A DNA stretch of 64,000 nucleotides from Micrococcales bacterium (GTDB lineage Bacteria; Actinomycetota; Actinomycetes; Actinomycetales; Microbacteriaceae): positions 1 to 64,000 of the forward strand of contig JACRGJ010000015.1 of assembly GCA_016212425.1 (NCBI GenBank), given 5' to 3'. Below, piece by piece: positions 18,311-18,786 of the stretch (its first letter is position 1; the number at the start of each line of letters is the position of its first letter). The notes below the pieces were generated by a model. It saw nothing but the letters and a program-made list of their open reading frames with translations. It was not told the DNA's origin and did no database searches. Position numbers and translations under genes: made by a program.

Positions 18311-18522
18311 TGCCCCTCCAGGTAGCTGATTCGGGCTCAGCCTACGGTCGAGGGGCCGCCGCGAGGGTCATCCGGAAGGATGAGTCCGACGTCACATCCC
18401 CTGCCCGATCGCCACGAACCGGAGGGTCTCGCGGGTGATCTGCGCGGCGACCTGCGCGTCGGTCGCCGTCGGGGTGCCGTCGCCCGACTCCGTGCCGCGG
18501 GAGATGGCCGCGACACGCCGAA

Positions 18523-18571
18523 CCACTACATATTGGGGAATGACATCCCTGTCATTCCCGCTATATAGTGG
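18523..18571 (+). promoter_or_regulatory. Palindromic promoter/operator upstream of the 25-codon gene
   Basis: A 49-nt AT-rich island in GC-rich DNA. The inner arms ggaatgaca (18537-18545) and tgtcattcc (18550-18558) are perfect complements around tccc. The outer parts ccactacata (18523-18532) and tatatagtgg (18562-18571) also pair, with one mismatch. A near-consensus sigma-70 promoter lies in it: -35 atgaca (18540-18545), -10 tatata (18562-18567, 16-bp spacer) or tatagt (18564-18569, 18-bp spacer). The minus strand shows a similar -35/-10 pair. Dyad symmetry over the promoter suggests control by a dimeric repressor. Confidence 0.65.
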
Positions 18572-18623
18572 TGATCCCGCGACGGACCCGCCGCGGACAC
18601 GCTCTCTGGGAGGGGGTCCGATC

Positions 18624-18701
18624 ATGGACAACGACAGCATCAGCGGCTACGACATCCCGGTCGACCCGATGGACCTGCTGCAGTGCGACAGCTGCCAGTA
18701 G
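18624..18701 (+). CDS. Orphan 25-residue peptide with C-terminal CxxC
   Basis: The ATG at 18624 follows the strong ribosome-binding site gggaggggg (18608-18616) and opens a 25-codon frame ending TAG at 18701. The product is acidic, begins MDNDSISGYDIPV and ends DPMDLLQCDSCQ, with Cys at 21 and 24. A near-consensus promoter lies about 55 bp upstream and a strong terminator about 50 bp downstream, so it forms its own transcription unit. There is no signal peptide or membrane segment, and no modification enzyme lies next to it. It could be a metal-binding or redox microprotein, a signalling peptide or a RiPP-like precursor. I do not recognise a family, and the function is unknown. Confidence 0.6.
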   Translation: MDNDSISGYDIPVDPMDLLQCDSCQ

Positions 18702-18752
18702 GCCCGAGCGACTGACGCGGACCCGTCAACCGGGACGTCAGCCCACAGGCTC

Positions 18753-18786
18753 CGAGCCCCCTCCGACCCCGGTCGGCGGGGGCTCG
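18753..18786 (+). terminator. Terminator hairpin after the 25-codon gene
   Basis: cgagccccc (18753-18761) pairs with gggggctcg (18778-18786), and the inner ccgac/gtcgg also pair, giving a stem of about 14 bp with a 4-nt loop. It is followed by tctcgtg. It separates the peptide gene from hadA. Confidence 0.8.

Follow-up and report, generated by a model that had tools for sequence, protein, structure and literature searches.

A 25-codon gene of Microbacteriaceae as a probable trans-acting redox tail of class I ribonucleotide reductase

The analysed stretch of DNA (64,000 nucleotides from a Micrococcales bacterium of the family Microbacteriaceae; further referred to as the window) contains a 25-codon gene whose product very probably serves the class I ribonucleotide reductase (RNR) of the cell as its C-terminal redox tail, encoded as a separate, trans-acting peptide. 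Based on sequence comparison, we set the probability of this reading at about 0.86. The peptide ends as covalent RNR tails do, the alpha subunits of the same genomes end without a tail, the two features co-occur, two genomes carry only a copy unlinked to nrdA, and the promoters of the peptide gene and of nrdA contain common boxes. From these features we infer that the peptide is translated, binds alpha and transfers electrons in trans, and that the boxes are bound by NrdR.

The active-site disulfides of class I enzymes are described as re-reduced by a C-terminal cysteine pair, which is in turn reduced by redoxins (PMC9531940, PMC6187632). For class I RNR, PMC5704485 describes TCEP as a reductant of the C-terminal cysteines and DTT as a possible direct reductant of the active site. 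With each turnover, a disulfide forms between the active-site cysteines of alpha. In most class I RNRs the cysteine pair of alpha's own tail re-reduces it, and thioredoxin, glutaredoxin or NrdH-redoxin then reduces the tail. Alpha of the split Microbacteriaceae lineage lacks such a tail. In the proposed scheme, a free peptide of approximately 22–40 residues ending in C-[DE]-S-C-Q, encoded by a copy lying between nrdA and nrdB, by a stand-alone gene such as the one in the window, or by both, would reach into alpha's active site in trans and deliver the electrons. Through NrdR-type boxes on both promoters, the supply of tails would be coupled to that of RNR, and an additional, separately promoted gene could lift the tail level above that of alpha.

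The gene in the window and its orthologues

The features of the locus are listed in Table 1. The initial annotation had proposed a small gene under a promoter of its own and with a strong ribosome-binding site; both proposals are upheld, and the gene is conserved. The control for the promoter pattern gave a mean of 0.0 matches (sd 0.2) in 50 shuffles. An inverted repeat surrounds the promoter at 18522–18572 (RNA fold z −4.19). As for the "good terminator" of the same annotation, a strong GC-rich hairpin is indeed present, but it has no T-run, the terminator search returned 0 terminator-like sites and did not recognise it, and its fold z is only −1.94; hence a terminator role is at most plausible. 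The only Rfam match in the window at gathering scores was a tRNA.

Table 1. Features of the peptide gene locus in the window
Feature	Position	Strand	Description
Candidate stand-alone RNR redox-tail peptide gene	18624..18701	+	25 codons and stop; translation MDNDSISGYDIPVDPMDLLQCDSCQ*
Ribosome-binding site	18608..18616	+	GGGAGGGGG; read from the sequence; strong; 3'-end 7 nt before ATG
σ70-like promoter	18540..18569	+	ATGACA-18-TATAGT; 10/12 positions match
NrdR-type box 1	18523..18538	+	CCACTACATATTGGGG; has the C-N8-G spacing of known NrdR boxes
NrdR-type box 2	18556..18571	+	TCCCGCTATATAGTGG; overlaps the −10 region; degenerate
Perfect 10-bp inverted repeat	18536..18559	+	GGGAATGACA/TGTCATTCCC; between the boxes; contains the −35-like ATGACA
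GC-rich hairpin, possible terminator without T-run	18753..18786	+	strong hairpin

Homologues of the peptide were searched for in 99 genomes, including its own, and 39 of them matched at E ≤ 10. Thirty matches were strong, every one from Microbacteriaceae; two at E about 1e-4 (G068 and G086) were covalent tails of NrdA; seven were weaker than 0.1, among them G081, likewise a covalent NrdA tail. In all four other genomes of the window's genus the peptide is 96% identical. Among 28 stand-alone orthologues, 1989 codon differences fall on position 3, compared to 637 and 493 on positions 1 and 2, and the median dN/dS is 0.14 (359 usable pairs of 378). Given the identity within the genus, the third-position bias and the low dN/dS, the frame is conserved beyond chance, and the gene is confirmed as real. 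The initial annotation had suggested looking for homologues in relatives, for an excess of third-position substitutions and for conservation of the flanking palindrome; all three were found, the last across the orthologous promoters.

The last 19 codons of these 28 orthologues contain 11 invariant positions (G, P, D, P, M, L, Q, C, S, C, Q). All 28 end in CxSCQ and so have the terminal cysteine pair of class I RNR tails. Comparison of the peptide with Pfam and NCBIfam yielded nothing above any curated cut-off, and with PHROGs, no match. In particular, the 25-aa peptide has no Pfam match to a thioredoxin-fold or redoxin domain, nor a cysteine-rich zinc-finger domain of the split class II NrdJb type, having only two cysteines.

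Tail-less alpha subunits and covalent tails

The PF02867 search found one RNR alpha in the window's own genome. It ends in ...ARRGFGGLG (...SSAPARRGFGGLG) with no cysteine pair. A second copy of the peptide, MDDDLTLTSAGGYEVPLDPMDLLQCDSCQ, is encoded between nrdA and nrdB, its ATG overlapping the nrdA stop codon as TGATG. The same arrangement prevails in the 30 genomes of the family that combine a tail-less NrdA with the peptide (split genomes). No cysteine follows the TYYL motif of alpha in 28 of the 29 counted; the exception, G013, has one cysteine in an alpha that looks frameshifted near its end. The thirtieth alpha (G045), read directly, ends in ...ARRGFGGLSR, also with no cysteine. The cysteine motifs QLSNCF, NLCTE and AVCNL, aligned with those of the solved class I alpha 5im3, are retained. 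As alpha ends without a tail in the 30 split genomes read, the peptide would be tail-like in its job and is not part of NrdA. The GFG-rich end of alpha might, as a guess, be the docking site of the peptide.

The nrdA–nrdB interval holds a peptide ORF in 28 of the 30 split genomes (including G042, G057, G016 and G045). This position, often close behind nrdA, together with the TGATG overlap in the window's own genome, would suit fusion of the peptide to alpha by programmed frameshifting or stop-codon readthrough, the copy in the window being a minor duplicate. However, each of the 28 operon copies has its own start codon (products of 22–40 residues), their frames relative to nrdA differ among genomes (0, 1 and 2), and the peptide also occurs alone on phages and plasmids. 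Moreover, two genomes, G056 and G019, lack the copy adjacent to nrdA, and their sole copy is unlinked to that gene; in G019, a single contig of 0.93 Mb, nrdA is approximately 33 kb from the peptide. We consider such fusion highly improbable. Since G056 and G019 possess the unlinked copy alone, the peptide should act in trans.

Three NrdA proteins from two families other than Microbacteriaceae carry the corresponding tail in one chain, ending in ...CPVDPMEALQCESCQ (G068), ...CPVDPMERLQCESCQ (G086) and ...CPVDPQERLQCEACQ (G081). Compared with ...CPVDPMEALQCESCQ, the peptide ending VDPMDLLQCDSCQ is homologous to these covalent tails, closely for G068 and G086 and more loosely for G081. When 396 genomes sampled across the order were searched, the peptide profile matched 35, of which 33 are outside Microbacteriaceae; 31 of these 33 matches lie in frames of at least 869 aa, G068, G086 and G081 being the ones read as NrdA. 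Given these three proteins, the peptide is the counterpart of a detached NrdA tail.

The origin of the split was considered on a tree of alpha subunits (36 rows, only three of them NrdE) rooted on remote outgroups; G026 and G042 (fragments), G060, G063 and G076b (remote alphas) and G045 were omitted from it. The covalent NrdAs (L038, L039, L040) nest inside the split group, which requires two changes. Because of this nesting, simple fission is not proven; both a single fission with a misplaced root and a later transfer with re-fusion of the tail are possible.

Presence of the peptide follows the type of NrdA. Thirty of 60 genomes of the family are split; the other 30 have an NrdE-type alpha ending in CVSC[MTA]L and no match to the peptide below E 0.4 (31 NrdE alphas were read, not counting a partial match of 125 aa in G007 and, in G059, a fragment at the end of a contig). 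In a larger set of 398 genomes of the family, 170 contain this type of NrdA, and all 170 contain the peptide (E ≤ 0.001); 221 contain neither. The remaining seven have the peptide with no clear NrdA: five are drafts with no alpha detected, G681 has an alpha fragment, and G286 a peptide remnant. NrdA type was defined as a match to NF005101 at E < 1e-70, a cut-off chosen post hoc within the gap between approximately 1e-61 and 7e-74; at the curated NF005101 cut-off 162 genomes pass instead of 170. The association is strong (Fisher p 2.6e-105 over 398 genomes, relatedness ignored) and partly phylogenetic. Genus g174 comprises six NrdA genomes with the peptide and three NrdE genomes lacking it; therefore relatedness alone does not explain the association. 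The remnant in the NrdE-type genome G286 is interrupted by a stop codon, the match lying after the stop (L324, 5043–5087).

Small thiols or a redoxin might act on alpha as direct reductants. If a redoxin or mycothiol did so, the peptide could be a regulator or inhibitor sitting in the tail's place, for which Sml1 on yeast Rnr1 is a precedent. A free peptide with a separate promoter and extra copies on phages and plasmids would suit such a role as well. Against it, both cysteines and the ending match those of catalytic covalent tails, and the peptide is present in every one of the 170 genomes with tail-less NrdA; we regard a regulator of this kind as very unlikely. A redox function was among those offered by the initial annotation and agrees with an RNR tail; neither an RNR tail acting in trans nor NrdR-type boxes had been foreseen there.

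Promoters with NrdR-type boxes

Both the stand-alone gene and nrdA are preceded by tandem boxes resembling NrdR sites. Boxes were scored against an NrdR consensus, and a best-pair score of at least 20 out of 32 was obtained for 28/28 stand-alone promoters (range 20–25) and for all 27 nrdA promoters tested (21–28); among controls resampled from a first-order Markov model, 0.3% reached 20. The distance between box starts equals 33 in 26 of the 28 orthologous stand-alone promoters and 32 in the other two. The C and G of box 1, nine positions apart, are kept in 55 of 55 promoters (28 stand-alone and 27 nrdA). Box 2 retains its G in 27/28 stand-alone and 27/27 nrdA promoters and its C in 15/28 and 22/27, respectively. 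Among loci from named genomes the boxes were found in 79 of 80, L251 being the one with none; eight of these loci come from genomes included in the earlier counts.

The G-C pairs conserved nine apart are described as important for NrdR binding (PMC9110341). The spacer between the boxes in the window is 17, and NrdR is described as functioning with 14–17-bp spacers (PMC12051234). The window's own genome contains an nrdR gene (TIGR00244, 151 bits, above the cut-off). The tandem-box pattern occurs twice in the own 2.56-Mb assembly, upstream of the gene in the window and of nrdA, and not in the reversed control; as the pattern was composed from these two promoters and matches both by design, the added value is that nothing else matches. 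The arrangement resembles the NrdR regulon as described in PMC9110341 and PMC12051234 in having a pair of boxes separated by about three helix turns, the C-N8-G spacing, an nrdR gene and the same element upstream of nrdA. It differs in its putative target, here a 25-codon gene for a tail and not an RNR operon. The repeat TGACAN4TGT located between the boxes is present in 24 of the 28 stand-alone promoters and in none of the 27 nrdA promoters, and may be the site of another regulator.

Known systems, neighbouring genes and mobile copies

The tails of class I alpha subunits (NrdA/NrdE) share with the peptide the C-terminal cysteine pair, the CxxCQ ending, sequence similar to that of G068, G086 and G081, and presumably the job; there the tail is covalent, whereas here it is a separate gene product and alpha ends with no tail. 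The nearest precedent is the split class II RNR, NrdJa/NrdJb, in which, as described in PMC5704485 and PMC9669993, the part delivering electrons is likewise encoded apart from the catalytic chain. According to the same descriptions, NrdJb is a large cysteine-rich zinc-binding domain serving a B12-dependent enzyme; in contrast, the peptide has about 25 residues and two cysteines, belongs to a class I system, and has unlinked and mobile copies. NrdH-redoxins and glutaredoxins, including the Grx domain that PMC6187632 describes as part of a fusion with Facklamia ignava NrdB, are similar as small electron donors to RNR with a cysteine pair. They reduce the tail, however, whereas the peptide would be the tail itself and has no match to a redoxin domain. 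Our literature search, which covered mainly open-access articles and no preprints, brought up no class I RNR whose tail is a free peptide.

If the reading is correct, a redox step that is otherwise intramolecular becomes open to titration with a synthetic peptide, to labelling and to free mutation. It would also account for alpha subunits that look truncated, add a gene family mostly missed by annotation, and mean that phages carry the smallest useful piece of RNR. As to the further proposal that a free diffusible peptide shuttle with an NrdR-controlled gene forms a separate control point of dNTP supply, which phages and plasmids exploit by carrying the peptide with neither RNR alpha nor, at the loci examined, NrdR-type boxes, as an RNR-boosting gene of about 25 codons, we see even odds.

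The genes surrounding the peptide gene in the window were identified by Pfam matches. On the minus strand these are an ABC ATPase and an FtsX-type permease, the 332-aa ORF nearest to the peptide gene having no Pfam match; on the plus strand, MaoC-type proteins in the hadA/hadB position and MurB. The initial annotation had considered a RiPP-like or signalling precursor, or a metal-binding peptide, with the adjoining exporter as a possible carrier. Conservation of the neighbourhood was assessed at 99 distinct stand-alone loci (107 listed, 8 repeats), in some of which the flanks are short. On the plus-strand side hadA is conserved in 83, hadB in 82 and murB in 79 loci, so the stand-alone locus is old. 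On the exporter side, the nearest ORF was matched in none of the 99 and the ABC ATPase in five. Adjacency of the ATPase and permease genes is what speaks for handling of a RiPP, signalling or metal-binding peptide by this exporter. The synteny, the lack of family matches in Pfam, NCBIfam and PHROGs noted above, and the dependence of peptide presence on NrdA type speak against it. For the neighbours compared, neither the synteny nor the family searches support the link to RiPPs and the exporter, which we find scarcely credible.

Beyond chromosomes, the peptide is encoded by two distinct phages, represented by three records, and by plasmids in 19 records; all of these come from Microbacteriaceae or their phages. 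Phage copies were seen in Pontimonas phage phiPsal1, Clavibacter phage CMP1 and many contigs of uncultured viruses (L157, 4977–5066; L158, 4986–5051; L164–L243); it is unannotated in both named phages. The CMP1 match is weak (E 0.8) and was accepted upon reading its ORF. In IMG/VR, 203 stretches encode the peptide. The best 80 of the 203 were fetched, 72 of them distinct by 150 nt. Within up to 4 kb on each side, these best 80 contained no nrdA, and nrdB was found in three. RNR alpha (PF02867) was not detected in any of 50 full records, many of them fragments (48 of the best 80 and the two phages). Tandem boxes were observed neither in the 79 of these 80 stretches with enough upstream sequence nor in seven phage and plasmid regions (best score 14–16 of 32). 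Each of ten proteins flanking the peptide, taken from seven contigs, had a PHROGs match; in five of the seven contigs the matches included families of terminase, portal, head or tail proteins.

On two Clavibacter conjugative plasmids the peptide is flanked by an ArdC-like gene and an SSB gene (L160, 3905–4066; L161, 3805–3966). The public entry for a 33-aa plasmid peptide, WP_223361114.1 (L162, 3965–4066), calls it "ribonucleotide-diphosphate reductase subunit beta", a name ruled out by its length. Some genomes contain additional copies: the profile counts six in G045 and five in G055 (L032, L033, L034; L049, L050), several of them on contigs of 66–112 kb. The ending VDPMDLLQCDSCQ occurs a third time in G004, as the terminus of a 197-aa open frame with no Pfam match (L029, 4015–4608), possibly a fusion of the ending to another protein. 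Ten ORFs were scanned at the extra-copy loci of G045, G055, G032 and G004, and one contained a Fic domain.
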